This document shows, piece after piece, positions 18,777-37,926 of a stretch of DNA of 64,000 bases (the stretch's first letter is position 1; each line of letters starts with the position of its first letter). The position numbers and the translations under genes are program-made. Source of the DNA: Aerophototrophica crusticola (GTDB lineage: Bacteria; Pseudomonadota; Alphaproteobacteria; Azospirillales; Azospirillaceae). The stretch covers positions 1-64,000 of the forward strand of contig MOEB01000001.1 in assembly GCA_001939945.1 (NCBI GenBank), written 5' to 3'. A model generated the notes under the pieces. It made no database searches. It saw nothing but the letters and a program-made list of their open reading frames with translations, and was not told the origin of the DNA.

Positions 18777-19934
18777 ATGATGCACCGCCCGTTGACCCTG
18801 GCGGAGGCGCAAGCCCGGCTCGACTCCCTGGCTCGGCCACCGGTGGCGGAGGCGGTGCCGCTGGCCGCCGCTGTGGGCCGGGTCCTGGCCGCGAACCTCC
18901 ACGCCCCCGGCCCGCTGCCCCCTGCCGACCGGGCCTTGGTGGACGGCTGGGCCCTGCGCGCCGACGACACGGTGGGCGCCAGCGCCTACAGCCCCCTTTT
19001 CGCGCAAGCTCTGGCAGTGGGGGCGGCGGTCCTCCCCGGCACCGCCGCCCCCCTCTCCGCCGGCGACCCCCTGCCGCCGGGTGCGGACGCGGTCCTGCCC
19101 CTGCATCTGGTGCAGGAAGCGGGCGGGATGCTGGAACTGCTGGGCCCCGTCGCCCCCGGCCAACATGTGGAACGGGCCGGCCAGGACTGCGCCGCCGGCT
19201 CGGTGCTCATCCCCGGCGGCCGCCGTCTCCGGTCCATGGATACGGCCTTGGCCGCCGCGATGGGCCTGGACAGGTTGCAAGCCACCCGGCAGCCCCGCAT
19301 CCGGCTGGTCCCCATCGGGCGTGGGGGCGGGGTGGACTTGGCTGGCCGCCTCTACCCCGACCTCATCACCCGGGACGGCGGGGTGGCGGACCCGGTGGCT
19401 GACCGCGCTGCCGACCCGCGCCAAGCCCTCACCGCGCCGGGCGCCGACCTGATCCTCCTGGTGGGCGGCACCAGCCCCGGCGCGCCCAGGGGGGCGGTGC
19501 TGCTGCGGGAACTGGGCCGCCTGGACTGGCACGGCCTGGCCCTCGACCCGGGGGAGGCCGCGGGGGCCGGTCTCGTCGGCGACACCCCGGCCATCCTGCT
19601 GCCCGGCGGCCCCGCGGCCGGTTGGTCGGCCTATGAGATGCTGGCCGGCCGGTTGATCCGCCGCCTTGCCGGCCTGCCCCCGGGCCTGCCGCACCCGGTC
19701 ATGCCGGTGCCCCTGGCGGTGAAGCTGGTGGGGGAAGTGGGGGCGACGCGGCTGGTCCCGGTCAGGCTGTCGCCGCAAGGGGCAGTACCCTTGCCGCCTT
19801 GCCCCGGGTTGGCGCAGCTTGTCCGGGCGGATGGGTTCGTGCTGGTCCCGCCTCACGTGGAGGGCTGGCCTGCCGGGACCGAAGTGGCCGTCCGCCTGTT
19901 CGATTGTTTTGGGACCCGTGATGCCGACCACTGA
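18777..19934 (+). CDS. MoeA-like protein with degenerate motifs
   Basis: A 385-residue MoeA homologue. MoeA inserts molybdenum into adenylylated molybdopterin. The fold is recognisable: PLAAAVGRVLAANL, VDGWALRADD in place of VDGYA, LPPGADAVLP and LLPGGPAAGWSAYEML. However, the STGDEL segment is replaced by VPIGRGGGVDL and SGGTSxGxxD by VGGTSPGAPRGA, so the acidic residues that handle metal and cofactor appear to be lost. It overlaps the next gene by 14 bases. It may be a catalytically dead partner of the fusion protein. Confidence 0.8.
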   Translation: MMHRPLTLAEAQARLDSLARPPVAEAVPLAAAVGRVLAANLHAPGPLPPADRALVDGWALRADDTVGASAYSPLFAQALAVGAAVLPGTAAPLSAGDPLPPGADAVLPLHLVQEAGGMLELLGPVAPGQHVERAGQDCAAGSVLIPGGRRLRSMDTALAAAMGLDRLQATRQPRIRLVPIGRGGGVDLAGRLYPDLITRDGGVADPVADRAADPRQALTAPGADLILLVGGTSPGAPRGAVLLRELGRLDWHGLALDPGEAAGAGLVGDTPAILLPGGPAAGWSAYEMLAGRLIRRLAGLPPGLPHPVMPVPLAVKLVGEVGATRLVPVRLSPQGAVPLPPCPGLAQLVRADGFVLVPPHVEGWPAGTEVAVRLFDCFGTRDADH

Positions 19935-21891
19935 CCCGCCCTTCCTGCGCCGCGTCGCCAGCCAGGACCAGTTCCTGGAAGTGGTCCCGCGGGAAGAGGC
20001 CAACCGCCGCTTCCACGCCCACCTGACCCTCGCCCCCTTGCCAGCGGAGCATGTCCCCCTGTCCGCCGACCTCCTGGGCCGGGTGCTGGCGGCGGACGTG
20101 GTGGCGCCCCTGGACGTGCCCCAGTTCGACCGCTCGGGCGTGGATGGTTTCGCGGTCCGCGCCACGGACACGTCAGGCGCCACCGACCACAGCCCTGTCA
20201 CCCTGCGCCTGAACGGGGAGGTGCTGGCCTGTGGCGTCGCCCCGGTTCAGGAGGTGCTGCCCGGCACCGCCACGGTCATCGCCACCGGCGGCATGGTCCC
20301 CCGCGGCGCCGACGCGGTGGTGATGGTGGAGCACACGGACTATCGGGAGGGGCCGGACGGCACCCCCCTGGTGGACATCCGCAAACCCGCTTCCCCCGGC
20401 AGCTTCGTCGCTTTCGCCGGCAGCGACATCGGGCGGGGTGAGGTGGTGCTCCGCCGCGGCACGGTGCTGACCAGCCGGGAGCTGGGCGTCCTCGCCGCCC
20501 TGGGCCTGACCCGGGTGGGCGTCGTCCGCCGGCCCCGGGTCGCCATCCTGTCCACCGGGGATGAGCTGCTGGCACCGGGGGAGCCCATGCGCCCCGGCGC
20601 CGTCTATGACAGCAACGCCGCCATCCTGGCCGCCGCGGTGGCGGAGGCGGGCGGGGAGCCGGTCCCCCTCGGCATCGCCCGCGACCGGGAAACCGAGATC
20701 GCGGCGAAGGTGGAACAGGGCCTGGAAGCCGACATGCTGGTCCTGTCCGGCGGCACGTCGAAGGGCGCCGGCGACATCAGCTACCGTATCATCGGCGGGC
20801 TGGGGGAACCGGGGATCGTCGTCCATGGCGTGGCGATCAAGCCGGGCAAGCCGGTGGCCCTGGGCGTCGTCCGGGGCAAGCCGGTGGTCCTGCTGCCGGG
20901 CTTCCCCACCTCCGCCATCTTCACCTTCCATGAGTTCGTGGCCCCCGTCATCCGCGCCCTCGCCGGGCTGAAGCCAGCCGCTGCCGACACGGTCCAGGCC
21001 ACCCTGCCGGTGCGCGCCCTGTCGGAGCGGGGGCGGGCCGAGTATGTGATGGTGTCGCTGGTGGACACCCCCGCCGGCCTCGCCGCCTACCCCACGGCCA
21101 AGGGCTCCGGCGCCGTCACCAGCTTCGCCCAGGCGGACGGCTTCTTCTGCGTGCCCCAGGGGGTGGAGGCGGTGGAGGCGGGTACGCGGGTTACCGTCCA
21201 GCGCATCGGCCGCGACCTGGAACCGGCGTCCCTGTCCATCATCGGCAGCCACTGCGTCGGGCTGGACCTGCTGGTGGGGGAACTGGCGGGGCAGGGGATC
21301 GGGGTGAAGCTGCTGAACGTGGGCAGCATGGGCGGCCTCGCCGCCGCCCGGCGGGGGGAGTGCGACATCGCCCCCATCCACCTGATGGACCCCAGGACCG
21401 GCACCTACAATACCCCCTTCCTGGCCGAAGGCCTTACCCTGGCCCGCGGCTATGGCCGGCGGCAGGGGATCGTCTTCCGCAAAGGCGACGGGCGGTTCGA
21501 GGGTAGGGCGGCGGCGGAGGCGCTGGCCGCCGCCCTGGCGGACCCGGACTGCCGCATGGTCAACCGCAACGCCGGCGCCGGCACCCGCATCCTGCTGGAT
21601 CGGCTGCTGGCCGGGGCGAAGCCGCCGGGCTATTGGGCGCAGGCCAAGTCCCACAATGCCGTGGCCGCCGCGGTGGCGCAGGGGCGGGCGGACTGGGGCA
21701 TGGCCATTGACACGGTGGCGGAACCTTACGGGCTGGGCTTCCTTCCCGTGCAGCCGGAACGATATGATTTCGCGATCCCCGCCGACCGGCTGGACCGGCC
21801 GTCGGTGCGGCGCTTCCTTGACCTGTTGGCGAACGCGTCCGTGCGCCGACGCCTGACGGAACTCGGCTTCGACCTGACGGAGGATGCATGA
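19921..21891 (+). CDS. MoeA fused to a periplasmic-binding-protein-like domain
   Basis: A 656-residue fusion. Residues 1 to about 415 form a full MoeA, with QFDRSGVDGFAVR, STGDELLAPGE, LSGGTSKGAGD and LLPGFPTSAIF intact. Residues from about 420 (SLSIIGSHCVGLDLLVGELA) to the end resemble a type 2 periplasmic-binding-protein domain like those fused to ModE- or MoeA-type regulators (NRNAGAGTRILLDRLL, KSHNAVAAAVAQGRADWG). This domain could bind molybdate or a cofactor intermediate. There is no signal peptide, so it works in the cytoplasm. The ATG at 19921 is preferred to an upstream start in the overlapping gene. Confidence 0.88.
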   Translation: MPTTDPPFLRRVASQDQFLEVVPREEANRRFHAHLTLAPLPAEHVPLSADLLGRVLAADVVAPLDVPQFDRSGVDGFAVRATDTSGATDHSPVTLRLNGEVLACGVAPVQEVLPGTATVIATGGMVPRGADAVVMVEHTDYREGPDGTPLVDIRKPASPGSFVAFAGSDIGRGEVVLRRGTVLTSRELGVLAALGLTRVGVVRRPRVAILSTGDELLAPGEPMRPGAVYDSNAAILAAAVAEAGGEPVPLGIARDRETEIAAKVEQGLEADMLVLSGGTSKGAGDISYRIIGGLGEPGIVVHGVAIKPGKPVALGVVRGKPVVLLPGFPTSAIFTFHEFVAPVIRALAGLKPAAADTVQATLPVRALSERGRAEYVMVSLVDTPAGLAAYPTAKGSGAVTSFAQADGFFCVPQGVEAVEAGTRVTVQRIGRDLEPASLSIIGSHCVGLDLLVGELAGQGIGVKLLNVGSMGGLAAARRGECDIAPIHLMDPRTGTYNTPFLAEGLTLARGYGRRQGIVFRKGDGRFEGRAAAEALAAALADPDCRMVNRNAGAGTRILLDRLLAGAKPPGYWAQAKSHNAVAAAVAQGRADWGMAIDTVAEPYGLGFLPVQPERYDFAIPADRLDRPSVRRFLDLLANASVRRRLTELGFDLTEDA

Positions 21892-22094
21892 ACGACGATG
21901 TCTTCAACATGGAGCTGCGCAAGTTCCTGAAGCAGGTGGGCGTCACCAGCCAGCGTGCCATCGAGCAGGCGGTGCAGAAGGCCCTCGCCGATGGCAAGCT
22001 GACGGGCACGGAGGTGCTCCAGGCCAAGGTGGTGCTGACCTTGGAGCCCCTCGGCGCCATCCATGAGGTCACCGACAGCATCGCCCTGGAGTAG
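21888..22094 (+). CDS. Small conserved protein, DUF6494-like
   Basis: A 68-residue protein (VFNMELRKFLKQVGVTSQR, then a helical tail) whose ATG overlaps the stop of the MoeA fusion (ATGA). It matches my memory of DUF6494, a family with no assigned function that is found by formate dehydrogenase and molybdenum genes. Helical, with no cysteines and no membrane segment. Probably soluble and co-translated with the MoeA fusion. Confidence 0.75.
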   Translation: MNDDVFNMELRKFLKQVGVTSQRAIEQAVQKALADGKLTGTEVLQAKVVLTLEPLGAIHEVTDSIALE

Positions 22095-22100
22095 TCGCCC

Positions 22101-23405
22101 GTGCGGTCCCTGATGGTCGGCCTGCTCGCCGCCGCGCTGGGTGCCGGCGCGGCGTGGGGGGAGTTCGTGGGCCATGGCGGCCCTGTGAAAGGCCTCGCCG
22201 TCTCCGCCGACGGGGCGGAGATGGTGAGCACCAGCTTCGACTATTCCACCATCCGCTGGAGCCTGCGGGACGGCTCGGCCCTGTCGGTCCTCTACGGCCA
22301 TGATGCGGCGGTGAACGCGGTGGCCTGGCTGCCGGGAGGCAAGGGCTTCGTCACCGGCAGCGATGACGGCAGCCTGGCCATCTGGACCGCCGGGGCGGAG
22401 AAACCTTCCGCCCGCCTCAACGGCCATGCCGGGCGGGTCTCCGCGGTGGCCGTGTCGCCTGACGGAAAGCTGGCGGCCTCCGCGGCCTGGGACCGCACGG
22501 TGCGGCTCTGGGATCTCACGACAGGCAAGCCCCTGCGCACGCTGGAAGGGCACAAGGACAACGTCAACGCCGTGGCATTCACGCCCGATGGCGCCACGCT
22601 GGCCAGCGCCGGCTATGACGGGGCCCTGAAGCTCTGGCGGGTAGCCGACGGCACGCCCTTGCGGGACGTGGTGCCCGGCGGCGCCCCCATCAACGGCCTC
22701 GCCCTCTCCCCCGACGGGACCCGGGCCGCCACCGCCGGGGCGGACGGCAAGGTGCGGGTCTGGGAACTGGGGGCGGAAAAGCCGGCGCTTCCCCTGGCGA
22801 CCCTGGCCCCGGTGCCCCTGCTGTCCGTGGCTTGGGGCGCGGACGGAAGGACCATCGCCGCCGCCGGGATCGACGGGGCCGCCACCGTCTGGCGCCTGCC
22901 GGACGCGGCGGTGCTGTACCGGCTGGGCGGCGACCGCGGCCCGATCTGGAGCCTGGCCTTCACCCCCGACAGCCGCACCCTGCTGGCCGGGGGTAATGAC
23001 CGGATGATCCGGCAATGGTCACTGGAGACGGGCCGCGAACTGGATGCCCCCACCCCCGTCCGCACTGTCGCCGCTGACGTGCAGCCGGGCGGCGACCCGG
23101 TGGGGGAGCGGCTGTGGAAGCGGTGTTCCGCCTGCCACACCCTCACCCCGGATGGCGGCCACCGGGCCGGGCCCACCCTTTATGGCGTCATGGGCCGCAA
23201 GATCGGCACGGCCCCCGGCTATCCCTATTCGGACGCCCTGAAGAACGGCAGCATCGTCTGGGATGAGGCGACCATCTCCGACCTGTTCGACCGCGGCCCC
23301 GACAAGGTCACCCCCGGCACCAAGATGCCCGTCCAGACCATCCCCAATGCGCAAGAACGCGCCGCCCTGGTCGCCTACATCCGGCGGGCGACTTCAGCGC
23401 CGTAG
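22101..23405 (+). CDS. WD40 beta-propeller fused to a c-type cytochrome
   Basis: A 434-residue exported protein: a signal peptide ends at about residue 20 (GAGAAWGEF), about seven WD40 blades follow (residues 20-310, for example AVSPDGKLAASAAWDRTVRLW), then a class I cytochrome c domain with CSACH, GPTLYGVMGRKIG and the distal methionine in GTKMPVQ. The heme would sit in the periplasm, so the protein may take electrons from formate oxidation or dock partner proteins. The start is GTG, 6 bases after the preceding stop. The stop TAG lies at the edge of a family B repeat. Confidence 0.88.
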   Translation: MRSLMVGLLAAALGAGAAWGEFVGHGGPVKGLAVSADGAEMVSTSFDYSTIRWSLRDGSALSVLYGHDAAVNAVAWLPGGKGFVTGSDDGSLAIWTAGAEKPSARLNGHAGRVSAVAVSPDGKLAASAAWDRTVRLWDLTTGKPLRTLEGHKDNVNAVAFTPDGATLASAGYDGALKLWRVADGTPLRDVVPGGAPINGLALSPDGTRAATAGADGKVRVWELGAEKPALPLATLAPVPLLSVAWGADGRTIAAAGIDGAATVWRLPDAAVLYRLGGDRGPIWSLAFTPDSRTLLAGGNDRMIRQWSLETGRELDAPTPVRTVAADVQPGGDPVGERLWKRCSACHTLTPDGGHRAGPTLYGVMGRKIGTAPGYPYSDALKNGSIVWDEATISDLFDRGPDKVTPGTKMPVQTIPNAQERAALVAYIRRATSAP

Positions 23406-23483
23406 GTCGGATTGGCGAAGCGTAATCCGACGCGGGCGGCACAGGCCGTCGGATTACGCGGCTCCGCCGCTAATCCGACCTAC
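23402..23483. repeat. Dispersed palindromic repeat, family B, copy 1
   Basis: Begins GTAGGTCGGATTGGCGAAGC and ends TAATCCGACCTAC, with CGTAATCCGAC and GTCGGATTACG inside. Copies at 36040-36133 and 51868-51968 share this layout. The TAG in each GTAGG end is the stop codon of a flanking gene here: the WD40-cytochrome gene (23403-23405) and the polyferredoxin gene on the other strand (23480-23482). Confidence 0.9.
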
Positions 23484-25495
23484 TCGTAATCCTCCGCCGT
23501 CCGCGGCCGCGGGCGTGCCGGTCCCGCATAGGGGTCCAGGGTGTGGCTGGCCTGGGCGACGACGCGGCAGTCGGCGCACATGCGGATGCGGTCGATGGGG
23601 TTGGCGCCCAGGGCCGCCGCGCCGCCGGCGTACATCCAGTGCTGGCCCTGGAGCTTGGCGACGATGCGCTCCACCGTGCTCTTGGTGCCGAAGGCCTTGC
23701 CGCAGGTGATGCAGTGGGCGGGTTCCTCCTCCTTCACCACGCGGGGGGTGCGGGCGGCATCGGTGAAGTCCAGGCGGGGGACGAGGCTGATCACCTTTTC
23801 CGGGCAGGTGTTCTTGCACAGGCCGCACTGGACGCAGGCATCCTCCGTAAAGGAAAGCTGCGGCTTCTCCGGGTTGTCCGACAGGGCGCCGGTGGGGCAG
23901 ACCTGCACGCAGGCAAGGCACAGGGTGCAGCCATCGACATTGATGTCCAGCCCGCCGAACACGGCCCCTGGCGTCAGCGGCAGCACGGGCACGGGGGCCG
24001 GGGCGGCCGCGTGCATCTGGCGGAGCGACAGCTTCATCAGGGCGCGCTTGTCGCCCATGGGCAAGAAGCTCTTGGCGGCCACGCCCGGCCGGCGGGTAAG
24101 CCCGGCCAGCAGGAAGGCCAGTTCGTCCGGGTCGTCGGCCTCCAGCAGGCCGCAGCGGCCGGAACCGTAGCCCAGGCCGCTGGCCACCGTCTCCGCCAGC
24201 CCCAACACATGGGCCAGGGCCGCCCGGTCGGACCGGCTGCGCTTGGCCGTCACCACCCGGACCTCCGCGGCACCATAGGCCAGGGCGCTGGCGAAGAACT
24301 CGATACCCAACTGGGTGACCTCATTCACCGCCACGGGCAGCACCCGGGCCGGAAGCCCATCGCCCACCCTGGCCAGCAGGTCCAGCAGGGGCAGGCCATG
24401 TTCCCCCTCATGCACCAGCAGCACGGCATCCTTGCCACCGGCCTGGTGGTAGGTGGACAGCAGCACCCGCAGCCGCTCCAGGATGGCGTCCGCCGGGGGC
24501 AGGGCATAGCTGGCCGCCCCGGTGGGGCAGACGGCGTGGCAGGAACCGCAGCCGGCGCAGACGAAGGGATCCAGGGCCACATGGTCGCCGTTCGGCGTGA
24601 TGGCGCCGGTGGGGCAGACCTCCAGGCAACGGGTGCAACCGGTGCGCCGGTTGCGGCTGTGGGCGCACAGGTCGGCGCGGTAGTCCACGTAGCGGGGCTT
24701 GTCGAACTCCCCCACCAGGTCCGCCGCCTTGAACAGCAGGGCCTGCACGGCCGCTGGGCTGTTCGGGTCGGCGCGCAAATAGCCGTCGCGCTTGTGGTCT
24801 GCCGGGAACAGGGGCGTGCCGCCGGTCAGGTCGATGATCACGTCGCAGCGGCTGCTGGCGCCGTTGCGGGGAGGGCCGAAGTCAAGATGGCGGCGGCTGG
24901 ACGGGGCGGGGACGGCATAATCGTCCACCACTAGCTCGAACGCGCCCAGGTAGCCCTTGGCCGCGCGGATGGTGCCCCGCAGGATGGGGAAGTCGGTGGC
25001 GCGGGGGGGAACCACCTCCCCCGGGCGGGACAGCAGCACGGTGACATCCAGCTTGTCCGCCAACTGCCGGGCGGCTTCCACCGCCGTCTCATCCCTGCCA
25101 TAGACCAGGGCCACGCCCTCAGACTTCAGCCCCACCAGGGGGGTGCCGGGCAGGGGCAGGGTGGCTTCGGCCAGCAGGGCGGCGATCTTGGGTGTGGCGG
25201 ACCCGACCTCCGCCGACCAGCCGGCCCGTTCGCGGATGTTGACCAGCTGGATCAGGTCGGGGTCGCCGCCGGCTTCCTCCACCGTCTCCTCGAACACCGC
25301 CCGCTCCTGGGTGCAGGCGACGAGGATGGGGCCGCCGCCGCTGGCCGCCGCGGCCAGCCGGTCACGCTCCGCCCGGCAGAGTTGGTGGTGGATGCGGGGA
25401 GGGGCCGTGCCCAGCGCCTTGCCCAGCGCTGCCGCGTCCAGCGGCATGGTGCCCTCGCAGGAGCAGAGGACCACCGTCCGGCCGTTGACTTCCAT
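23480..25495 (-). CDS. Multi-cluster 4Fe-4S protein (polyferredoxin-like)
   Basis: A 671-residue cytoplasmic protein. After CSCEGTM at residues 11-17 come four ferredoxin-type motifs: CTRCLEVCPTGA, CAGCGSCHAVCPTGA, CTLCLACVQVCPTGA and CVQCGLCKNTCPEKV. A CITCGKAFG...CADC pair near the C terminus may bind zinc or iron. It should carry electrons between formate oxidation and a soluble partner, or serve in cofactor assembly. The ATG at 25495 is used; an in-frame GTG at 25522 would add 9 residues. It is divergent from the next gene and ends in repeat family B. Confidence 0.85.
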   Translation of the reverse strand: MEVNGRTVVLCSCEGTMPLDAAALGKALGTAPPRIHHQLCRAERDRLAAAASGGGPILVACTQERAVFEETVEEAGGDPDLIQLVNIRERAGWSAEVGSATPKIAALLAEATLPLPGTPLVGLKSEGVALVYGRDETAVEAARQLADKLDVTVLLSRPGEVVPPRATDFPILRGTIRAAKGYLGAFELVVDDYAVPAPSSRRHLDFGPPRNGASSRCDVIIDLTGGTPLFPADHKRDGYLRADPNSPAAVQALLFKAADLVGEFDKPRYVDYRADLCAHSRNRRTGCTRCLEVCPTGAITPNGDHVALDPFVCAGCGSCHAVCPTGAASYALPPADAILERLRVLLSTYHQAGGKDAVLLVHEGEHGLPLLDLLARVGDGLPARVLPVAVNEVTQLGIEFFASALAYGAAEVRVVTAKRSRSDRAALAHVLGLAETVASGLGYGSGRCGLLEADDPDELAFLLAGLTRRPGVAAKSFLPMGDKRALMKLSLRQMHAAAPAPVPVLPLTPGAVFGGLDINVDGCTLCLACVQVCPTGALSDNPEKPQLSFTEDACVQCGLCKNTCPEKVISLVPRLDFTDAARTPRVVKEEEPAHCITCGKAFGTKSTVERIVAKLQGQHWMYAGGAAALGANPIDRIRMCADCRVVAQASHTLDPYAGPARPRPRTAEDYE

Positions 25496-25626
25496 GTTCC
25501 TGGCGTTCCCTGTCGCGTTCACCTGCGCCGGACTGGTGGGCCGGCCGTTCTTGTCAGGTTTGATTAGAAAACAGATATTCCGCCGACCGGCAATCTAAAG
25601 GCCGGGGGCTCAGAGAAGAGGGACCC

Positions 25627-26355
25627 ATGTCCGACGGTCTGGAAGATATGGCAACGCTCAGCGTGCCGCCCCCGTTCCACGCCGTCTGCTCCGGCCCGTC
25701 CGACGCCTTCCTGCGCGCCGTGGTGGAAGCGGAGGCGGAGGCCGGCGCCGCCACCCTGGTCTGGTCCAGCCGCCCGGACCTGGTGGACCTGGCTGTGGTG
25801 TTCGAGCCGGAGATGCCCCTGCGCCAAGCGCGGCTGGTGGGGCCGGTGCTGATGCTGGCCATGGCAGACGCGCTGGCTGCCCTGGGCCCGCCGCAGAAGG
25901 ATTGCCGCTTCGCCTGGCCCGGCACCCTGGAGGTGGACGGCGCGGAGGTGGGGTCTGTCTCCGTCACCGCCCCGGCCTTCGCGGAGGAAGAGTCGGTGCC
26001 GGAATGGCTTGTCGCCGGCGTGAAGCTGCGCCTGTCCTTCCCGCCCGATGTTTCCGATCCAGGGAAGACCCCGGAGCGCACGGCCCTGTATGAGGAAGGG
26101 TTCGGCGACGTCACCGGGGTGGAGATCGTGGAGAGCTTCAGCCGCCACCTGCTGCACTGGACCAACCGCTGGCTGGAAGAGGGCGGGGAGCCGGTGGCCC
26201 AGGAATGGCTGGACCACCTTGCGCCCCGGCTGCTGGGTGGGGCGGTGAAGCACGGGCTGGACCCCAGGACAGGCGACCTGCTGCTGTTGGACCCGGGCTC
26301 CACCAAACCGCGGCGCATGGACCTGGCGGCGGCGCAGGCCGACCCCCAGGCCTAA
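25627..26355 (+). CDS. Lipoate/biotin protein ligase-like protein (BPL/LplA/LipB fold)
   Basis: A 242-residue protein. The first 150 residues (DLAVVFEPEMPLRQARLVGP, DCRFAWPGTLEVDGAEVGSV) resemble the BPL_LplA_LipB_2 fold, and the C-terminal 70 residues resemble DUF4444. The family occurs beside formate dehydrogenase accessory genes. The lysine of the usual ligase site is not obvious, so a ligase reaction should not be assumed. It shares a divergent promoter region (25496-25626) with the polyferredoxin. Confidence 0.7.
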   Translation: MSDGLEDMATLSVPPPFHAVCSGPSDAFLRAVVEAEAEAGAATLVWSSRPDLVDLAVVFEPEMPLRQARLVGPVLMLAMADALAALGPPQKDCRFAWPGTLEVDGAEVGSVSVTAPAFAEEESVPEWLVAGVKLRLSFPPDVSDPGKTPERTALYEEGFGDVTGVEIVESFSRHLLHWTNRWLEEGGEPVAQEWLDHLAPRLLGGAVKHGLDPRTGDLLLLDPGSTKPRRMDLAAAQADPQA

Positions 26356-28988: not shown

Positions 28989-29512
28989 TCGTCGAACGTC
29001 GGCCCGTGGGGGTCGTGGTGGAGCGGCGGCCCTCCAACAACCGGTGGGAGCCGTGGGTCTGGCGGGCCGTCGGGGTGCTGCCCGGCGCGCCGGAGACGCC
29101 GCCCTGGACCGTGCTGGGGGAGGCGGGCGGGATTACCACCTATTACGCCGGCACGGCGGAACTGGTGCTCTATGAGAAGGAGACGGAGACCTACAAGCCC
29201 AACGTGGAGAGCGAGATGCCGTCGGTCTACATCGTCCTCCGCCGGGCGGAGACGGTGAGCGGGTACGAGCTGCTGCTTGCTACTGTGGATGTGGGCGAGG
29301 CGCAGGCCCATGCCGATAGCGGCGATGACCTGTTGGAAGCCGTGCCCATGCCGGACCCGGTCCGGTCCTGGGTGGCCGGCTTCGTGGCGACGCACCATGT
29401 GGAGCGGGCTTTCTACAAGCGCAAGCGCGACCGCGCCGACCCGGAGGCGCTGGCCACCGGCCCGCGGCGGGAGCGCCGGGGCCCCCGTGGGCCGGAGGAG
29501 CTGGATGACTGA
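28985..29512 (+). CDS. DUF3305 domain protein
   Basis: A 175-residue protein starting with TTG at 28985 (IVERRPVGVVVERRPSNNRW), followed by a beta-rich domain (YYAGTAELVLYEKETETYKP, YIVLRRAE) and a basic Arg-rich tail. This is the DUF3305 pattern. DUF3305 and DUF3306 genes usually come as a pair next to formate dehydrogenase. The TTG start overlaps the previous stop; the stop overlaps the next ATG by 8 bases. Function unknown. Confidence 0.75.
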   Translation: MIVERRPVGVVVERRPSNNRWEPWVWRAVGVLPGAPETPPWTVLGEAGGITTYYAGTAELVLYEKETETYKPNVESEMPSVYIVLRRAETVSGYELLLATVDVGEAQAHADSGDDLLEAVPMPDPVRSWVAGFVATHHVERAFYKRKRDRADPEALATGPRRERRGPRGPEELDD

Positions 29513-30247: not shown

Positions 30248-30399
30248 TAGCTATATCATTGCAATGCAATATGTTGATTTCTCAGCGGGACTTGACCGAT
30301 TGCGCTTGCCGCCAAGTTTTTTCTCCGCATAACATGCCCGCCAGGTGGTCAAGGACCTCATCAGGGCCTGCCGCCTTCCGCAAGAAGGGATTGGGGAGC

Positions 30400-31023
30400 G
30401 TGTCAGGCGTACCGAACGATCGCGCCGGGAGCGGCAGCCAGGGCATCGCCCTGGATGAGGCCGACCTGTTGCGCGCGCGTCTCTGGTCCCTGCTGGGCAC
30501 CCTGCTGGCCCGCCCGCCGTCGGCGGAGCTGCTTTCCCAACTGTCCGGCCTGTCCGGCGACGCATCGCCCCTGGGCCAAGCCCTGTCCGCCCTGGCCGCC
30601 GCGGCCGCGGCGACGGAGGAGAGGCGGGCGGAACGTGAATACCACAACCTGTTCATCGGTGTGGCCCGGGGGGAGCTGGTGCCCTACGCCAGCTTCTACC
30701 TGACGGGCTTCCTGAACGAAAAGCCGCTGGCGCGGCTGCGCGGCGACATGGCGGATCTGGGCATCGCCCGCGCCGAGGGCGCCTCCGACCCGGAGGACCA
30801 TATCGCCAGCATTTCCGAGATGATGGCCGGGCTGATCGCAGGGGACTTCGCGGTCCCGCTCGCCCGGCAGAACCAGTTCTTCACCCGGCATATCGCCCCC
30901 TGGGCGGGCCGGTTCTTCTCAGACCTGGAACAGGCGGGGGAGGCAGCCTTCTACCGGCCCTTGGGCACGGTGGGGCGGCTGTTCGTGGAGATCGAGGCGG
31001 AGGCCTACCGGCTCGCCGCCTGA
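30400..31023 (+). CDS. TorD/DmsD family chaperone for the formate dehydrogenase
   Basis: A 207-residue all-helical protein. TorD-family proteins bind molybdoenzyme signal peptides and help insert the cofactor before export. ERRAEREYHNLFIGVARGEL with PYASFYLTGF is the family core motif, and EDHIASISEMMAGLIAGDF is the second conserved helix. I prefer the GTG at 30400 (AAGGGA 9 bases upstream); an ATG at 30334 would add 22 residues of low quality. It is the first gene of the structural block and has the dyads in front of it. Confidence 0.85.
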   Translation: MSGVPNDRAGSGSQGIALDEADLLRARLWSLLGTLLARPPSAELLSQLSGLSGDASPLGQALSALAAAAAATEERRAEREYHNLFIGVARGELVPYASFYLTGFLNEKPLARLRGDMADLGIARAEGASDPEDHIASISEMMAGLIAGDFAVPLARQNQFFTRHIAPWAGRFFSDLEQAGEAAFYRPLGTVGRLFVEIEAEAYRLAA

Positions 31024-31075: not shown

Positions 31076-31153
31076 GGGCGGTTCAGGGAACTTCTTACCC
31101 TCCCGCGGGCCATGGGGCCTGCGGGCGGCATGGCATTGGGGAGGGTACGCACC

Positions 31154-31366
31154 ATGGCGTCGGAAAAGTCTGGAAAGGACGCGGTCGGCACCGGCCGCCG
31201 CGGGTTCCTGCGCGTGCTGGGCACCACCGCCGCGGGCGCGGCCGTGGCCGTGCCCCTGGTCGCGGCCGGTCCGGCCGAGGCCAAGGAGTCGGAAGCCGAC
31301 CGGGTCAAGGCCCGGTACAAGGAAACCGACCACGTCAAGACCTACTACCGGACCAACCGGTACTGA
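31154..31366 (+). CDS. Small Tat-targeted protein of the formate dehydrogenase region
   Basis: A 70-residue protein whose first half is a twin-arginine signal: TGRRGFLRVLGTTAAGAA, then VAVPLVAAGPAEA. The remaining 27 residues (KESEADRVKARYKETDHV, then KTYYRTNRY) are typical of the small formate dehydrogenase region Tat-target family. It may be exported with FdhA. It sits 19 bases before fdhA. ATG at 31154 is used; another in-frame ATG at 31130 would add 8 residues. Confidence 0.82.
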   Translation: MASEKSGKDAVGTGRRGFLRVLGTTAAGAAVAVPLVAAGPAEAKESEADRVKARYKETDHVKTYYRTNRY

Positions 31367-31385: not shown

Positions 31386-34310
31386 ATGCTGACCAAGCGC
31401 GCATCCGCGTCGCCCAACCGTGCCCGCCTGACCGAGGCGTTGGCATCCGTCGCCTCCGGCGCCCTCGACCGCCGGACCTTCCTGCGCCGCTCCGGCCTTG
31501 CGGCCGGTGGCCTGGCCGCGGTGTCCGGCCTGTCGCTCACCACGGTGCGCAAGGCAGAGGCCGGGCCCCACACGCCCGGCGTACCGATTGAGCTGAAACG
31601 CAACATCTGCACCCATTGTTCCGTCGGCTGCACCGTGCATGCCGAGGTGCAGAACGGCGTCTGGGTGGGGCAGGAGCCCGCCTATGACAGCCCGATCAAC
31701 GTGGGCACCCACTGCGCCAAGGGCGCCTCGGTGCGTGAGCTGGTCCATGGCGACCGCCGGCTGAAGTACCCGATGAAGCTGGAGAACGGGGAGTGGAAGC
31801 GCATCTCCTGGGACCAGGCCATCGACGAGGTCGGCGCCAAGCTGCTGGACATCCGGGAGAAGTCGGGCCCGGACAGCGTGTTCTGGCTGGGTAGCGCCAA
31901 GTTCAGCAATGAGGGCGCCTACCTGTTCCGCAAGATGGCGGCGCTGTGGGGCACCAACTCGGTCGACCACCAGGCCCGCATCTGCCACAGCACCACGGTC
32001 GCCGGCGTGGCGAACACGTGGGGCTACGGCGCCATGACCAACAGCTACAACGACATCAACAACGCCAAGGCCATCCTGATCATCGGCGGCAACCCCGCGG
32101 AGGCGCACCCCGTCTCGCTGCAGCATGTGCTGCGCGGCAAGGAGGTGAACCGGGCCCAGATGATCGTGGTGGACCCGCGCTTCACCCGCACCGCCGCCCA
32201 TGCCACCGAGTATGTGCGCCTGCGCCCCGGCACGGACATCCCGCTGGTCTGGGGCATGCTCTGGCACATCTTCGAGAATGGCTGGGAGGACAAGGAGTAC
32301 ATCGCCCAGCGCGTCCACGGCATGGACCAGATCCGCAAGGAGGTGGCCAAGTGGACGCCGGAGAAGGTGGCGGAGGTCACCGGCGTCCCGGGCGAGCAGG
32401 TCAAGCGCGTCGCCGAGATCATGGCGAAGAACCGCCCCAGCACCCTGATCTGGTGCATGGGCGTGACCCAGCACACGGTGGGCACGGCCAACGTGCGGGC
32501 GCTGTCCATCCTGCAGCTCGCCCTGGGCAACATCGGGGTCGAGGGCGGCGGGGCCAACATCTTCCGCGGCCACTGCAACGTGCAGGGCGCCACGGACCTG
32601 GGCCTCGACGTCACCACCCTGCCGGCCTATTACGGCCTGACGGAGGGTGCCTGGAAGCACTGGGCCCGCGTCTGGGACGTGGATTATGAGTGGCTGCTGA
32701 ACCGCTTCGGCACCGCCACTATGGACCGGGCGGCCAAGAAGAAGCTGATGGAGACCAAGGGCATCCCCACCACGCGCTGGTTCGACGCCACGCTGGCCGA
32801 TGCCAAGGATGTGGACCAGCCGGCCCCGCTGAAGGGCATGGTGGTGTTCGGCCACGGCGGCAACACCGTCACCCGCATGGGCGAGAGCCGCAAGGGCCTG
32901 GAGGCGCTGGAGCTTCTGGTCGTCGCCGACCCGCACCCCACCACCTTCGCCAGCCTGTCGGGCCGCAAGAACGGCACCTACCTGCTGCCCATCTGCACCC
33001 AGTTCGAGTGCGCGGGCTCCCGCACCGCCTCCAACCGCTCCATCCAGTGGGGTGAGCAGGTGGTGAAGCCGATCTTCGAGTCCAAGAACGACTACGAGGT
33101 CATGTACCGCCTGGCCGGCAAGCTCGGCTTCCAGAACGAGATGTTCAAGAAGATCGAGGTCAACGGCGTGGAGCCGACGGCCGAGAGCATCCTGCGGGAG
33201 ATCAACTACGGCACTTGGTCCATCGGCTACACCGGCCAGTCGCCGGAGCGGCTGAAGCTGCACATGGCCAACCAGGAGCATTTCGACAAGATCACGCTGA
33301 AGGGCGCCCCGGGCTCCCCTGTGGCGGGCGAGTATTACGGCCTGCCCTGGCCCTGCTGGGGCACGGCGGAGCTGAAGCACCCCGGCACCCACGTGCTCTA
33401 TGACACCACCAAGCACGTGATGGAGGGTGGCGGCACCTTCCGCGCCCGCTTCGGCGTGGAGCGGGACGGCCAGACCCTGCTGGCGGAGGGCAGCTTCTCC
33501 AAGGGCTCGGAGATCGAGGACGGGTATCCCGAGTTCACCATGGGCCTGCTGAAGAAGCTGGGCTGGGACAAGGACCTGACCGAGGCGGAGCTGGCGGTCA
33601 TCAACAAGATCGGCGGGGCCAACAACGACGGCGTGTCCTGGACCACCGACCTGTCCGGCGGCATCATCCGGGTGGCGTTGCAGCATGGCTGCTCGCCCTT
33701 CGGCAACGCCAAGGCCCGCGCCGTGGCCTGGAACCTGCCCGACCCGGTGCCCGTGCACCGGGAGCCCATCTACAGCCCGAACCCGAAGCTGGTGGCCGAG
33801 TATCCCACCCGCGACGACAACCGCGACTTCCGCGTCGCCAACGTCGGCAAGTCCGTGCAGACCAAGGCCGTGGAGGCCAAGCTGCATGAGAAGTTTCCGG
33901 TCATCCTCACCTCGGGCCGCCTGGTGGAGTATGAGGGCGGCGGCGAGGAGACCCGGTCCAACAAGTGGCTGGCCGAGCTGCAGCAGGACATGTTCGTCGA
34001 GGTCAATACCGAGGATGCCGGCAAGCTGGGCGTCAAGGATGGCGGCATGGTCTGGGTCTATGGGCCGGAGGGGGACTCCAAGGTCAAGGTCAAGGCCTTG
34101 GTGACCAACCGGGTGGGCAAGGGCGTGGCCTTCATGCCCTTCCACTTCGCCGGTTTCTGGGAAGGGGAAAGCCAGCGCGACGCCTATCCCAAGGGCACCG
34201 ACCCCATCGTGCTGGGCCACAGCGTCAACGCGGTGACCACCTACGGCTACGACCCGGTGACCTTCATGCAGGAAACCAAGGTCACGCTGTGCCGCATCGA
34301 GGCCGCGTAA
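31386..34310 (+). CDS. fdhA: Formate dehydrogenase alpha (catalytic) subunit, Tat-exported
   Basis: A 974-residue molybdopterin enzyme that oxidises formate to carbon dioxide. The Tat signal (LDRRTFLRRSGLAAGG, residues 28-42) sends it to the periplasm. C75, C78, C82 and C110 hold a 4Fe-4S cluster; C200-H201 in QARICHSTTVA is the metal ligand and base, so this is a cysteine, not selenocysteine, form. QHVLRGKEVN and VNTEDAGKLGVKDGGM mark later cofactor-binding parts. RBS GGGGAGG lies before the ATG. It heads fdhA-fdhB-fdhC. Confidence 0.95.
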   Translation: MLTKRASASPNRARLTEALASVASGALDRRTFLRRSGLAAGGLAAVSGLSLTTVRKAEAGPHTPGVPIELKRNICTHCSVGCTVHAEVQNGVWVGQEPAYDSPINVGTHCAKGASVRELVHGDRRLKYPMKLENGEWKRISWDQAIDEVGAKLLDIREKSGPDSVFWLGSAKFSNEGAYLFRKMAALWGTNSVDHQARICHSTTVAGVANTWGYGAMTNSYNDINNAKAILIIGGNPAEAHPVSLQHVLRGKEVNRAQMIVVDPRFTRTAAHATEYVRLRPGTDIPLVWGMLWHIFENGWEDKEYIAQRVHGMDQIRKEVAKWTPEKVAEVTGVPGEQVKRVAEIMAKNRPSTLIWCMGVTQHTVGTANVRALSILQLALGNIGVEGGGANIFRGHCNVQGATDLGLDVTTLPAYYGLTEGAWKHWARVWDVDYEWLLNRFGTATMDRAAKKKLMETKGIPTTRWFDATLADAKDVDQPAPLKGMVVFGHGGNTVTRMGESRKGLEALELLVVADPHPTTFASLSGRKNGTYLLPICTQFECAGSRTASNRSIQWGEQVVKPIFESKNDYEVMYRLAGKLGFQNEMFKKIEVNGVEPTAESILREINYGTWSIGYTGQSPERLKLHMANQEHFDKITLKGAPGSPVAGEYYGLPWPCWGTAELKHPGTHVLYDTTKHVMEGGGTFRARFGVERDGQTLLAEGSFSKGSEIEDGYPEFTMGLLKKLGWDKDLTEAELAVINKIGGANNDGVSWTTDLSGGIIRVALQHGCSPFGNAKARAVAWNLPDPVPVHREPIYSPNPKLVAEYPTRDDNRDFRVANVGKSVQTKAVEAKLHEKFPVILTSGRLVEYEGGGEETRSNKWLAELQQDMFVEVNTEDAGKLGVKDGGMVWVYGPEGDSKVKVKALVTNRVGKGVAFMPFHFAGFWEGESQRDAYPKGTDPIVLGHSVNAVTTYGYDPVTFMQETKVTLCRIEAA

Positions 34311-34340: not shown

Positions 34341-34937
34341 ATGGCACGCATGAAGTTCCTCTGCGACGCCGAGCGCTGCATCGAGTGCAACGCCTGCGTC
34401 ACCGCCTGCAAGAACGAGCACGAGGTCCCCTGGGGCATCAACCGCCGCCGCGTCGTCACCATCAAGGACGGCGAGCCGGGGGAGCGCTCCATCTCCATGG
34501 CCTGCATGCACTGCACCGACGCGCCCTGCGCGGCCGTGTGCCCGGTGGACTGCTTCTACACCACCGCCGACGGCGTGGTGCTGCACAGCAAGGACCTTTG
34601 CATCGGCTGCGGCTACTGCTTCTACGCCTGCCCGTTCGGGGCGCCGCAGTACCCGCAGACCAGCAACTTCGGCAGCCGCGGCAAGATGGACAAGTGCACC
34701 TTCTGCGCCGGCGGGCCGGAGGATGACATCACCCCGGTGGAGTACCAGAAGTACGGCTCCAACCGCCTGGCGGAGGGCAAGCTGCCGCTCTGCGCGGAGA
34801 TGTGCTCCACCAAGGCGCTGCTGGCGGGCGACGGCGACATCATCGCCGCCATCTACAAGGAGCGTGTGGTGAAGCGTGGCTATGGCACCGGCGCCTGGGG
34901 CTGGTCCGTGGCCTACAAGGACAGCTCCGCGGCCTGA
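34341..34937 (+). CDS. fdhB: Formate dehydrogenase beta (iron-sulphur) subunit
   Basis: A 198-residue electron-transfer subunit. Sixteen cysteines in four groups (C13/16/19/23, C55/58/63/67, C87/90/93/97, C119/122/151/155) fit four 4Fe-4S clusters. It lacks the C-terminal membrane helix of FdnH-type beta subunits, so it should be held by FdhA and FdhC. It passes electrons from FdhA to the cytochrome b. GGAGGG lies before the ATG. Confidence 0.94.
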   Translation: MARMKFLCDAERCIECNACVTACKNEHEVPWGINRRRVVTIKDGEPGERSISMACMHCTDAPCAAVCPVDCFYTTADGVVLHSKDLCIGCGYCFYACPFGAPQYPQTSNFGSRGKMDKCTFCAGGPEDDITPVEYQKYGSNRLAEGKLPLCAEMCSTKALLAGDGDIIAAIYKERVVKRGYGTGAWGWSVAYKDSSAA

Positions 34938-34954: not shown

Positions 34955-35977
34955 ATGACCATGACCAACCGCCTTACCCGTCTCGCCGCCGCCGGGCTGC
35001 TCGCCCTGCCGCTGCTCGCCGGCGGTCCCGCCTTCGCGCAAGGTGCCGGCCCGGTGGGCCAGACCCCGTCCGGCCAGCAGCCGCAGAACATCTCCGAGCA
35101 GGAGGTGCAGCTCTTCCAGCAGCTCCAGGGCAACGTGGCCGGCCGCGTGTCGATCCCCGACGCCAAGGCCAGCCTGCTGATCCAGCCGGAAGGCAAGTCC
35201 TGGCGCGACTTCCAGCGCGAGGAGCTGAAGCTGATCGGCGGTATCGCCATCTTCGGCATCCTGGCCGTGCTGGCGATCTTCTTCGCCACCCGCGGCCGGA
35301 TCAAGATCGAGGGCGGCCCGGCGGGGCGCACCATTACCCGCTTCAACGGGCTGGAGCGTTTCGCCCATTGGCTGACGGCCAGCTGCTTCATCGTGCTGGG
35401 CCTCAGCGGGCTGAACATCGCCTTCGGCCGGGCGCTGCTGCTGCCGGTCATCGGGCCGGAAGCCTTCACCGCCGTCTCCCAGGCGGGCAAATATGCCCAC
35501 AACTACCTGTCCTTCCCCTTCACCCTGGGCGTGGTGCTGATGTTCCTGCTCTGGGCGAAGGACAACATCCCGAACAAGCTGGACATCGACTGGCTGAAGG
35601 CCGGCGGCGGCCTGGTCGGCAAGGGCCACGCCCATGCCCACCGCTTCAACGGCGGCCAGAAGATGATCTTCTGGAGCACCGTGCTGGGCGGCGGCGCCAT
35701 CGCGGCCACCGGCTATTTCCTGATGTTCCCCTTCACGGTCACCGACATGGCCGGGATGCAGCTGGCCCACATCGTCCACGCGGTGCTGGGCGTCCTGCTG
35801 ATCGCCATGATCCTGGCCCACATCTACATCGGCTCCGTCGGCATGGAGGGCGCCTTCGCCGCCATGGGCTCCGGTGAGGTGGACCTGAACTGGGCCCGCG
35901 CCCACCACGACCTCTGGGTCCAGGACATGATGGGCACCCGCCATGAGGGCCGCGGCCACCCGGTGGCGGCGGAATAA
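34955..35977 (+). CDS. fdhC: Formate dehydrogenase gamma subunit (cytochrome b556)
   Basis: A 340-residue membrane protein. A cleavable-looking signal (LLALPLLAGGPAFAQ) is followed by a Gln-rich stretch, one helix near 95-115, then the four-helix cytochrome b core (LERFAHWLTASCFIVLGLSG, KYAHNYLSFPFTLGVVLMFL, TVLGGGAIAATGYFLMF, LAHIVHAVLGVLLIAMILAH) with histidines for heme b. It delivers electrons to quinone. RBS GGAGGAGGG. A strong terminator follows 26 bases after the stop. Confidence 0.93.
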   Translation: MTMTNRLTRLAAAGLLALPLLAGGPAFAQGAGPVGQTPSGQQPQNISEQEVQLFQQLQGNVAGRVSIPDAKASLLIQPEGKSWRDFQREELKLIGGIAIFGILAVLAIFFATRGRIKIEGGPAGRTITRFNGLERFAHWLTASCFIVLGLSGLNIAFGRALLLPVIGPEAFTAVSQAGKYAHNYLSFPFTLGVVLMFLLWAKDNIPNKLDIDWLKAGGGLVGKGHAHAHRFNGGQKMIFWSTVLGGGAIAATGYFLMFPFTVTDMAGMQLAHIVHAVLGVLLIAMILAHIYIGSVGMEGAFAAMGSGEVDLNWARAHHDLWVQDMMGTRHEGRGHPVAAE

Positions 35978-36035: not shown

Positions 36036-36039
36036 TTTC

Positions 36040-36133: not shown

Positions 36134-36145
36134 TAAACTCGCTGG

Positions 36146-36673
36146 ATGACAAACAGGCACAAAACCTTCGGCCTTGCCGGGTGGAGCGGCAGCGGGAAGA
36201 CGACGCTGATGGCGAAGTTGATCCCGGCGGTCATCGCCCGGGGCTTCACCGTCTCCACCCTGAAGCACGCCCACCACGCCTTCGACGTGGACCAGCCGGG
36301 CAAGGACAGCTATGTCCACCGCATGTCCGGCGCGACGGAGGTGCTGGTGTCCTCCGCCAACCGCTGGGCCCTGATGCATGAGAACCGCGGCGCGCCGGAG
36401 CCGACTTTGGCGGAGTTGCTGGGCAAGCTCTCCCCCGTGGACCTGGTGCTGGTGGAGGGGTTCAAGCGCGACAGCCATCCGAAACTGGAGGTCTGGCGCG
36501 CCGCCAACGGCAAGCCCCTGCTGCACCCGGACGACCCGCACATCGTGGCGGTGGCCAGCGATGAACGCATCCCCGGCTGCCCCCTGCCGGTGCTGGACCT
36601 GAACGACGTGGACGCCATCGCCGGCTTCATCCTGGGCCATGTCGGTCTGGTCCGTGGGGGAGGGCGGGGCTGA
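36146..36673 (+). CDS. mobB: Molybdopterin-guanine dinucleotide biosynthesis protein B
   Basis: A 175-residue P-loop GTPase. GWSGSGKTTLMAKLIP is the Walker A region, STLKHAHHAFDVDQPGKDS is the conserved His/Asp loop and LVEGFKRDSHPKLEVWR is the family signature. MobB helps MobA form the guanine dinucleotide cofactor for formate dehydrogenase-type enzymes. Its stop overlaps the ATG of moeA by one base. Family B repeat lies just upstream. Confidence 0.92.
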   Translation: MTNRHKTFGLAGWSGSGKTTLMAKLIPAVIARGFTVSTLKHAHHAFDVDQPGKDSYVHRMSGATEVLVSSANRWALMHENRGAPEPTLAELLGKLSPVDLVLVEGFKRDSHPKLEVWRAANGKPLLHPDDPHIVAVASDERIPGCPLPVLDLNDVDAIAGFILGHVGLVRGGGRG

Positions 36674-37926
36674 TGGCCCAGCTCAGCGACGACTGCTTCG
36701 CCTTCGGCGGGCCGCTGCTGCGGGTGGACGACGCGGTCGCCCTGGTGCGGGAACGGCTGGCCCCGGTGGCCGGGGTGGGGGAGCTGCCGCTGCTGGCCGG
36801 GCTGGGCAAGGTGCTGGCGGCAGATGTCGTCGCGCCCATCGACGTGCCCGCCTTCGACAATTCCGCCGTGGACGGCTATGCGGTCCGCTTCGACGACCTG
36901 CACCCGGAAGCGGACACCACCCTGCCGGTCCAGGGCCGGGTGGCCGCGGGGCAGCGGCTGGGGGTGCCGGTAGCCCCGGGCGTTGCCGTGCGCATCTTCA
37001 CCGGCGCGCCGATGCCGCCGGGCTTGGACACGGTGATGATGCAGGAGGATGCGGTGCTGGGCGACGGCACCGTCACCCTGCGCCCCGGCCTGAAGCGCGG
37101 CGCCAACGCGCGGGCGGCGGGGGAGGATGTGGCGAGGGGCAGCGTGGCCTTGCCCGCCGGCCGGGTGCTGCGGCCCCAGGACATCGGCCTGGCCGCCAGC
37201 CTGGGCCTGACCAGCCTGCCCCTCAGGCAGGCCCTGCGGGTGGCCGTCTTCTCCACCGGGGATGAGCTGGCGGAGCCGGGCGGGGAGCGGGCGCCCCAGG
37301 CCATCTATGACAGCAACCGCTTCACCCTCCAGGGCCTGTTGGCCAAGCTGGGCTGCGCCGTCACCGACCTCGGCATCCTGCGCGACAGCCGTGACGCCAT
37401 CGGCGCGGCGCTGGCCGCCGCCGCCCCGTCCCATGACCTGATCCTCACCTCGGGCGGCGTCTCCACGGGGGAGGAGGACCATGTGAAGGCGGCCGTGGAG
37501 GCGCACGGATCGCTGCATTTCTGGCGCCTCGCCATCAAGCCGGGCCGGCCTGTGGCCCTGGGCCAGGTGGGCAACACACCCTTCGTCGGGCTGCCCGGCA
37601 ACCCGGTGGCGGTGATGGTCACCTTCCTGCGACTCGTCCGGCCGCTGGTCCGGCGGCTGCAGGGGGCTGAGCCGGAGGCGGTCCCGGCCTTCCCCGTCCG
37701 CGCCGCCTTCGCCTATAGAAAGAAGAAGGACCGCCGTGAGTATGTGCGCGCCCGCCTCGTCCGCGCCACCGACGGGACCTGGGAAGCCCACAAGTCCGGG
37801 CGGGAGGGGGCAGGCATCCTCTCCAGCCTGGTGGAGGCCGATGGCCTGGTTGAGTTGGGTGAGGAGGTAACCCGGGTTGCCCCGGGCGATACCATTGATT
37901 ATCTGTCCCTGGGTCTGTTGATCTAA
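36673..37926 (+). CDS. moeA: Molybdopterin molybdenumtransferase MoeA
   Basis: A 417-residue MoeA with all motifs intact: DNSAVDGYAVRFDD, FTGAPMPPGLDTVM, FSTGDELAEPG, TSGGVSTGEEDHVKAA and GLPGNPVAVMVTFL. It inserts molybdate into adenylylated molybdopterin. This is the canonical copy among the three MoeA homologues in the window and overlaps mobB by one base. Confidence 0.93.
   Translation: MAQLSDDCFAFGGPLLRVDDAVALVRERLAPVAGVGELPLLAGLGKVLAADVVAPIDVPAFDNSAVDGYAVRFDDLHPEADTTLPVQGRVAAGQRLGVPVAPGVAVRIFTGAPMPPGLDTVMMQEDAVLGDGTVTLRPGLKRGANARAAGEDVARGSVALPAGRVLRPQDIGLAASLGLTSLPLRQALRVAVFSTGDELAEPGGERAPQAIYDSNRFTLQGLLAKLGCAVTDLGILRDSRDAIGAALAAAAPSHDLILTSGGVSTGEEDHVKAAVEAHGSLHFWRLAIKPGRPVALGQVGNTPFVGLPGNPVAVMVTFLRLVRPLVRRLQGAEPEAVPAFPVRAAFAYRKKKDRREYVRARLVRATDGTWEAHKSGREGAGILSSLVEADGLVELGEEVTRVAPGDTIDYLSLGLLI

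Follow-up and report, generated by a model that had tools for sequence, protein, structure and literature searches.

In the 64,000-nucleotide stretch of Aerophototrophica crusticola DNA analysed here (the window; its genome, G000, is hereafter the host), positions 18777-37926 hold 18 genes grouped around a formate dehydrogenase (FDH) of the FDH3 type. Comparative genomics, together with what is known of the families involved, leads us to conclude that this island is probably a dedicated late-stage assembly line of that one enzyme, a reading to which we give a probability of roughly 0.75. A preliminary description of the island had put family names to its genes. The island is real, and after re-annotation with Pfam and NCBIfam these names hold by hidden Markov models, among them those of three MoeA homologues, MobB, the DUF families, the WD40 and Fer4 proteins, TorD and fdhABC. 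Below, genomes, contigs and loci are cited by handles beginning with G, C and L, and genes lie on the plus strand of the window unless stated otherwise.

The enzyme is encoded by fdhA (31386..34310), fdhB (34341..34937) and fdhC (34955..35977) and, judged from its sequence, is a cysteine-type FDH3 exported by twin-arginine translocation (Tat), bound to the membrane and facing the periplasm. FdhA (PF04879, PF00384, PF01568) carries what looks by eye like a twin-arginine leader, and its active site reads ARICHS, with Cys200-His201 and no selenocysteine. It stays below the cut-offs of the FDH-N alpha model TIGR01553 (338 vs 814.2) and of TIGR01591 (472.8 vs 666.25), so that it is related to these families and not assigned there. 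FdhB is the FDH3 iron-sulfur subunit (NF038355, 340.1 bits, cut-off 240) and FdhC the cytochrome b subunit (PF01292; TIGR01583, 152.2 bits, cut-off 115.85). Immediately upstream lie genes for a TorD/NarJ-family chaperone (30334..31023, start approximate; PF02613) and for the small Tat-signal protein of FDH regions (31112..31366, starting at 31112 or 31154; TIGR02811, 51.1 bits, cut-off 48.45). The host encodes FdhD outside the island, on contig C13, in the run tupBCA, a protein joining a helix-turn-helix (HTH) to a periplasmic-binding-protein (PBP)-like domain, fdhD and mobA. The HTH_17-PBP protein, found beside tupBCA and fdhD at 8765-9757 of L123 (G000:C13), is a probable oxyanion-sensing regulator. 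Further FDH genes exist in the host: an FDH1-like enzyme is encoded on contig C35, and a second FDH3 on C258 (L087) consists of fdhABC and the Tat protein, its FdhA being 71% identical to that of the island, without accessory DUFs in the stretch seen. Many genomes of the family show two score classes of the FDH3 beta subunit.

The evidence that carries our conclusion is the joint distribution of the accessory genes and FDH3. In a class-wide sample of 181 alphaproteobacterial genomes, 24 (the host included) were scored FDH3-positive, having an FDH3 beta subunit over the NF038355 cut-off, and 157 FDH3-negative. DUF3305 was found in 24/24 of the former and 3/157 of the latter; the polyferredoxin, at more than 200 bits, likewise in 24/24 (the G064 copy having two internal stops) and 3/157 (G053, G071 and G125); DUF6352 in 20/24 and 3/157 (G007, G071 and G127); the ligase-like protein, at more than 100 bits, in 16/24 and 2/157 (Fisher p 3e-15); and DUF6505, over its cut-off, in 14/24 and 2/157, one of these two copies with an internal stop. 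The 100-bit and 200-bit thresholds were chosen after the scores had been seen, and the ligase-like count leaves out G087 (114.7 bits) because its copy keeps both KWPND and GRGR, as a normal ligase does. Fisher p values for these co-occurrences run from 6e-27 to 8e-13 with kinship ignored. Two of the genomes counted as FDH3-negative, G071 and G127, both among the three that have DUF3305, carry fdhA at contig ends; G007, with DUF6352 and no FDH3, is 93% complete, with 7% contamination, in 810 contigs, and may simply represent an assembly gap. DUF3306 was seen together with FDH genes in neighbourhoods. A lack of co-occurrence with fdhA, which the preliminary description had named as one result that would speak against its proposal, was thus looked for and not found for DUF3305, DUF6352, DUF6505, the ligase-like protein and the polyferredoxin.

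The window's own family gives a sharper test. Across 82 genomes of this family, each of them 90% complete or more, the presence or absence of DUF6352 matches that of FDH3 in 80: both are present in 51 and neither in 29, FDH3 occurs alone in two (G183 and G194), and DUF6352 never occurs alone. In most carriers the two genes stand apart: among the 51 genomes with both they lie within 20 kb in 11, at least 31 kb apart on one contig in 26, and on different contigs in 14, although in draft assemblies the last may still be neighbours. The states also change together within genera: both are present in 2/11 genomes of the window's genus and neither in 9/11; genus g2 has both in 40/45 (with no pair as close as 20 kb on a shared contig), neither in three and FDH3 only in two; and of the two genomes of genus g164, one has both and one neither. 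Such joint inheritance without linkage is our strongest sign that DUF6352 depends on FDH3.

Gene neighbourhoods, whose comparison across genomes the preliminary description had proposed as a check, point the same way. We tallied the flanks (up to 10 kb, some contigs being short) of 80 named DUF6352 loci, the best 80 of at least 569 relatives, and 39 of them had at least one of fdhA, fdhB, DUF3305, DUF6505, the ligase-like gene and the polyferredoxin gene. Out of the 80, the ligase-like gene was present in 35, DUF3305 and DUF3306 in 30 each, fdhB in 29, DUF6505 and fdhC in 28 each, fdhA, torD and the Tat-protein gene in 27 each, polyferredoxin and DUF6494 in 25 each, WD40-cytochrome c (at least 150 bits, within 10 kb) in 24, tupB in 8 (one weak), tupA in 7, and mobB and moeA1 in 4 each. 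Full synteny was found in Oleisolibacter albus, which also gave the highest DUF6352 match among named relatives. In Sinorhizobium sp. C101, one region holds a moeA pair, tupABC, DUF6494, a WD40-cytochrome c match, polyferredoxin, ligase-like, DUF6505 and DUF6352 genes, together with DUF3305, DUF3306, torD, the Tat-protein gene, fdhAB(C), moeA, mobA and fdhD; Methylobacterium bullatum has moeA1, mobB, moeA-PBP, moeA5-like, WD40-cytochrome c, polyferredoxin, ligase-like, DUF6505, DUF6352, DUF3305, DUF3306, torD and fdhABC. In Azospirillum lipoferum only torD, the Tat-protein gene and fdhABC stand together in the stretch seen. Because the same gene set recurs in other genera, we do not consider it a chance grouping.

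One of the accessory proteins is the biotin/lipoate-ligase-like protein (25627..26355; PF16917, 195.8 bits). It shares this sequence family with BirA-type biotin protein ligases and with the solved chain 3bfm, its closest solved relative by profile (E 5.7e-56). That chain is labelled as biotin protein ligase-like with function unknown, and an open-literature search turned up no paper that names it. Unlike the BirA-type enzymes, the FDH-linked group lacks the catalytic lysine and the GRGRRGR loop: in none of 30 aligned FDH-side sequences was there a lysine before WP (its place being taken by G in 10, R in 4, A, L, Q and V in 3 each, D in 2, and E and I in 1 each), and the loop was absent from all 30. 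Eighteen of 19 further profile matches also lacked KWPND, and GRGR inside the domain, the exception being the normal ligase of G087, which, in the stretch seen, is well removed from FDH3 genes. General PF16917 controls had KWPND in 7/7 and GRGR in 6/7, the one without GRGR being the host's own second copy. The lysine motif is missing from 3bfm in the alignment as well. To go by these alignments, the FDH-linked ligase-like protein is a pseudo-enzyme devoid of both catalytic motifs.

DUF6505 (27451..27969; PF20115, 188.5 bits) and DUF6352 (27966..28988; 340 residues; PF19879, 275.8 bits) were modelled with AlphaFold2. The DUF6352 model, built from 81 sequences, reached a predicted local distance difference test score (pLDDT) of 93 and a predicted template modelling score (pTM) of 0.90; that of DUF6505, from 28 sequences, reached 86 and 0.77. 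Sequence searches of the PDB found no relative for either protein (best E 0.28 for DUF6352 and 0.18 for DUF6505). Compared with solved structures, DUF6352 gave no convincing match (best Foldseek E 0.43; best VIA-align Z 3.9, with a root-mean-square deviation of 5.4 over 85 residues) and DUF6505 no convincing relative, which does not show that either has a new fold. Genes of class II ribonucleotide reductase and of a peptidyl-arginine-deiminase-like protein, met as neighbours of solitary DUF6352 and DUF6505 genes, gave no clear functional lead either. DUF3305 (28985..29512; PF11749) and DUF3306 (29505..30143; PF11748) follow. A DUF3305 domain is fused to MobA in the curated model NF011058, and runs of DUF3305, mobA and fdhD occur in G051, G128, G159 and G125.

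How these proteins might work together can be sketched. The preliminary description had envisaged a joint role in cofactor delivery, enzyme export or electron transfer; of these, cofactor delivery and assembly are now the best supported, while the WD40-cytochrome c and the polyferredoxin may take part in electron transfer. Since DUF3305, the polyferredoxin, DUF6352, DUF6505 and the ligase-like protein show no export signal, they would work on apo-FdhA while it is still in the cytoplasm, ahead of its export. MoeA1 and MobB would load tungstate, or molybdate, on the pterin, and MobA and FdhD, encoded elsewhere, would make and sulfurate the bis-molybdopterin guanine dinucleotide (bis-MGD) cofactor. 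DUF3305 might help to pass bis-MGD to apo-FdhA, a handover suggested by its position beside mobA-fdhD in some relatives and by its fusion to MobA in a curated family. TorD would protect the twin-arginine leader; DUF6352, DUF6505 and the ligase-like protein might hold or check apo-FdhA or FdhB; and the polyferredoxin might give low-potential electrons for iron-sulfur or metal-sulfido loading. The roles of the individual proteins are guesses, each of them doubtful when taken singly.

The metal of the enzyme is a separate question, and the features bearing on it are new here, the preliminary description having said nothing of tungsten. We consider the chances of tungsten to be about even. A TupA-like tungstate transporter is present in 23/24 FDH3-positive and 34/157 FDH3-negative genomes (one 24.6-bit match not being counted), and tup genes lie within the FDH3/DUF stretches (at most 20 kb) of 11/24 FDH3-positive genomes. 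The tupBCA-fdhD-mobA run of the host on C13 is a further sign. As far as their available portions go, published papers provide the background. Phan and Kim (PMC13197769) report that MoeA1, MobB and FdhD are required for tungsten in the FDH1 of Methylorubrum extorquens, moeA3 and moeA5 being dispensable, that Arg291 and Ala312 make MoeA1 favour tungsten, and, in their Table 1, that moeA5, moeA3, mobB and moeA1 have consecutive locus tags; MoeA-PBP fusions are said to co-occur with TupA (PMC11733289). In the window, mobB (36146..36673; PF03205, TIGR00176) is followed by a moeA1-type insertase gene (36673..37926) whose product carries both biasing residues, the arginine in KPGR and the alanine in GNPVA 21 residues on, the positions being matched by motif and spacing only. 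A MoeA-PBP fusion (19921..21891; NF011068, 769.8 bits, cut-off 534; PF12727) and a degenerate, MoeA5-like homologue with the insertase loop DPGE (18777..19934; MoeA_N and MoeA_C by Pfam, its gene adjoining moeA-PBP in L124, L142 and L215) stand at the other end of the island. In M. bullatum, moeA5-like, moeA-PBP, mobB and moeA1 genes occur in that order beside the FDH3 island, a match to strain AM1 by order only.

Full-length MoeA1 proteins linked to such islands have both Arg and Ala in 8/9 cases (the window, L009, L088, L125, L130, L142, L213 and L227), the L125 copy with a short insertion, while in L227 mobB-moeA1 adjoin polyferredoxin, DUF3305 and torD genes; the copy of L124 is cut by the end of the locus and stands outside the nine. 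The exception, L084, has Lys and Ser, as Escherichia coli MoeA does, and belongs to G122, the only FDH3-positive genome that yielded no TupA. Arginine discriminates better than alanine. Among 12 MoeA loci, hand-picked from 60 listed of 136 records, six carry Arg, and all six stand next to mobB, fdhD or FDH genes (the M. bullatum island being one of them); the other six have Lys (those of nar, two arsenite oxidases, AM1 moeA2 and two others). Ala, by contrast, is found even in the MoeA proteins encoded next to narGHJI and arsenite oxidase. Tungsten as a certainty was rejected, given the FDH1-like enzyme of the host and an Ala position that does not separate molybdenum-type from tungsten-type MoeA.

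Several observations weigh against the reading of the island as an assembly line of FDH3, and against tungsten as its metal. FDH3 occurs without DUF6352 in G022, G075, G096 and G154 of the class sample, and in G183 and G194 of the family. In G125 (L225, C3), fdhD, mobA, DUF3305, DUF3306 and the polyferredoxin gene stand together with no FDH3 beta subunit over the cut-off. As many as 41 of the 80 DUF6352 loci have no island partner in their flanks, and in 17/44 solitary loci (L095, L129, L193 and others) DUF6352 is located upstream of a class II ribonucleotide reductase gene that is no more than 5 kb away; given these partnerless loci and neighbours, DUF6352 could have another job. DUF3305 and DUF3306 are called putative membrane proteins in the available text of PMC4464133, whereas our hydropathy scan, made with no dedicated predictor, found no membrane-like stretch in either (19-residue maxima 0.84 and 1.04). 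As to the metal, the host TupA scores 230.5 bits against the NF041772 cut-off of 400, while being 60.8% identical to the Sinorhizobium query; TupA is present in the 34 FDH3-negative genomes mentioned above; and the Arg mark recurs in an FDH/hydrogenase cluster of Rhodovastum with no tup genes in the stretch seen. The real client of the tungsten genes might be the FDH1-like enzyme of the host, which shares 66% identity with a homologue from Methylobacterium encoded beside MoeA-PBP, MobB and MoeA1 genes.

It is indeed conceivable that the MoeA, MobB and Tup genes serve this FDH1-like enzyme of C35 and that FDH3 is an ordinary molybdenum enzyme that merely shares the neighbourhood, an alternative we take seriously and still rate below even odds. 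The tungsten FDH1 of M. extorquens (W-MeFDH1) needs MoeA1, MobB and FdhD according to the accessible part of PMC13197769; the host has such an enzyme; and M. radiotolerans has this gene set next to FDH1-like genes, as does Mesorhizobium INR15, there without mobB in the stretch seen. Yet mobB-moeA1 follow fdhC in the window, L125, L130, L142 and G035, the quartet of M. bullatum stands beside FDH3 genes, and the tup genes of 11/24 FDH3-positive genomes lie in the FDH3/DUF stretch. Electron-transfer or regulatory partnership in formate oxidation, instead of assembly, is what DUF6352, DUF6505 and the ligase-like protein might offer on another account, which draws on the WD40-cytochrome c and polyferredoxin of the same island, and on which no mutant data were found. 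We think this unlikely, as the three proteins have no export signal by eye, neither the DUF6352 nor the ligase-like alignment contains an invariant cysteine, and Pfam and NCBIfam scans gave none of the three a DNA-binding or sensor domain. Finally, phylogenetic hitch-hiking might be suspected, with large-genome Rhodospirillales and their relatives carrying both gene sets without any functional tie; Fisher tests ignore descent and our sample is uneven, but the concerted changes of DUF6352 and FDH3 within three genera of the family make such an explanation very improbable. Overall, a dedicated assembly line of FDH3 remains the reading we prefer.

The organization of the block leaves room for several transcription units. 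The preliminary description had reported overlaps of up to 14 bases and taken the whole block to be co-translated. Six overlaps were found when the sequence was read again, of 14 bases (19921-19934), 4 (21888-21891), 4 (27966-27969), 4 (28985-28988), 8 (29505-29512) and 1 (36673). Co-translation of the whole is not supported, because the polyferredoxin gene (23480..25522, minus strand; 4Fe-4S domains of the Fer4 family; no Tat or Sec signal by eye) is convergent with the WD40-cytochrome c gene and divergent from the ligase-like gene, so that there are at least three transcription units. The WD40 protein (22101..23405; PF00400) has a C-terminal cytochrome c-550-like stretch and a signal-like N-terminus. 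Weak promoter-like matches were found at 25551-25579, before the ligase-like gene, and at 30230-30259, in the gap between DUF3306 and torD; the scan gave three promoter-like sites against 0.9 expected and nine terminator-like sites against 7.6 expected, and tRNA and Rfam scans found little. Between the convergent genes, at 23402..23483 and assigned to no strand, lie nested inverted repeats (GTAGGTCGGATT... type) with 16- and 13-nt arms that resemble repetitive extragenic palindromic elements; they may end transcription from both sides or represent a mobile repeat.

Nor do all genes belong to the island equally, as had been assumed. The orphan open reading frame at 26414..27379 (321 residues, signal-like N-terminus, no Pfam or NCBIfam match) had no relative in the 142 loci scanned (phmmer, E 1e-6), the closest island, L124, included, and is probably outside the system. 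DUF6494 (21888..22094; 68 residues; PF20104) is a facultative member: it is present in 18/24 FDH3-positive and 13/157 FDH3-negative genomes, and sdhAB are near in 7/16 of its solitary loci (L105, L107, L108, L113, L115, L116 and L119). These neighbours and the 13 FDH3-negative genomes rule it out as an FDH-specific factor. It appears as a small protein common to two respiratory dehydrogenases.

Parts of the island resemble known systems. The dmsD/torD-fdhGHI loci of PMC4464133 also unite DUF3305, DUF3306, the Tat protein, a NarJ-family chaperone and fdh subunits, with the DUF3305/DUF3306 pair in 60% of DmsD-fdh operons, so that the location of these two beside FDH chaperone genes is already published; DUF6352, DUF6505, the ligase-like protein, DUF6494, the MoeA modules and a tungsten link go unmentioned in the available text of that paper. 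Campylobacter FdhM (Cj1514; PMC4148689) is a TorD-family protein encoded upstream of an fdh operon and required specifically for FDH, and the portion available of that source does not mention a DUF6352, DUF6505 or ligase-like partner. With the tungsten branch of M. extorquens, composed of MoeA1-MobB-FdhD and tupBCA (PMC13197769, in its available part), the host shares the MobB-MoeA1 pair, Arg and Ala in MoeA1, FdhD and TupABC homologues; two more moeA genes of M. extorquens, with neighbouring locus tags, are a possible parallel to ours. That branch matures FDH1, while the genes described here adjoin an exported FDH3 and many more accessory genes. Open-literature searches at the level of titles and listings, subscription papers lying outside them, returned no paper tying DUF6352, DUF6505 or the dead ligase to FDH; any of the five DUF names appeared in just two open papers, one of them unrelated to judge by title and abstract.

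It is tempting to go further and to suppose an aerobic pathway for a Tat-exported tungsten FDH, served by an assembly line of its own. DUF6352, whose fold may so far be absent from the PDB, and the dead ligase would then be maturation factors of a new type for molybdo- and tungstoenzymes, linked to FDH3 throughout Alphaproteobacteria; we hold this extended scenario to be tentative and rather less probable than not. There is demand for tungsten FDHs in CO2 reduction, and the making and insertion of the cofactor are described as a central barrier to their production in the accessible text of PMC13197769. If DUF6352, DUF6505, DUF3305/DUF3306, the polyferredoxin and the ligase-like protein are indeed required for FDH3, they would provide a named and testable parts list, several DUF families and the orphan crystal structure 3bfm would gain a function, and the routing of tungsten and molybdenum to different FDHs in aerobes would acquire a second system beside FDH1.

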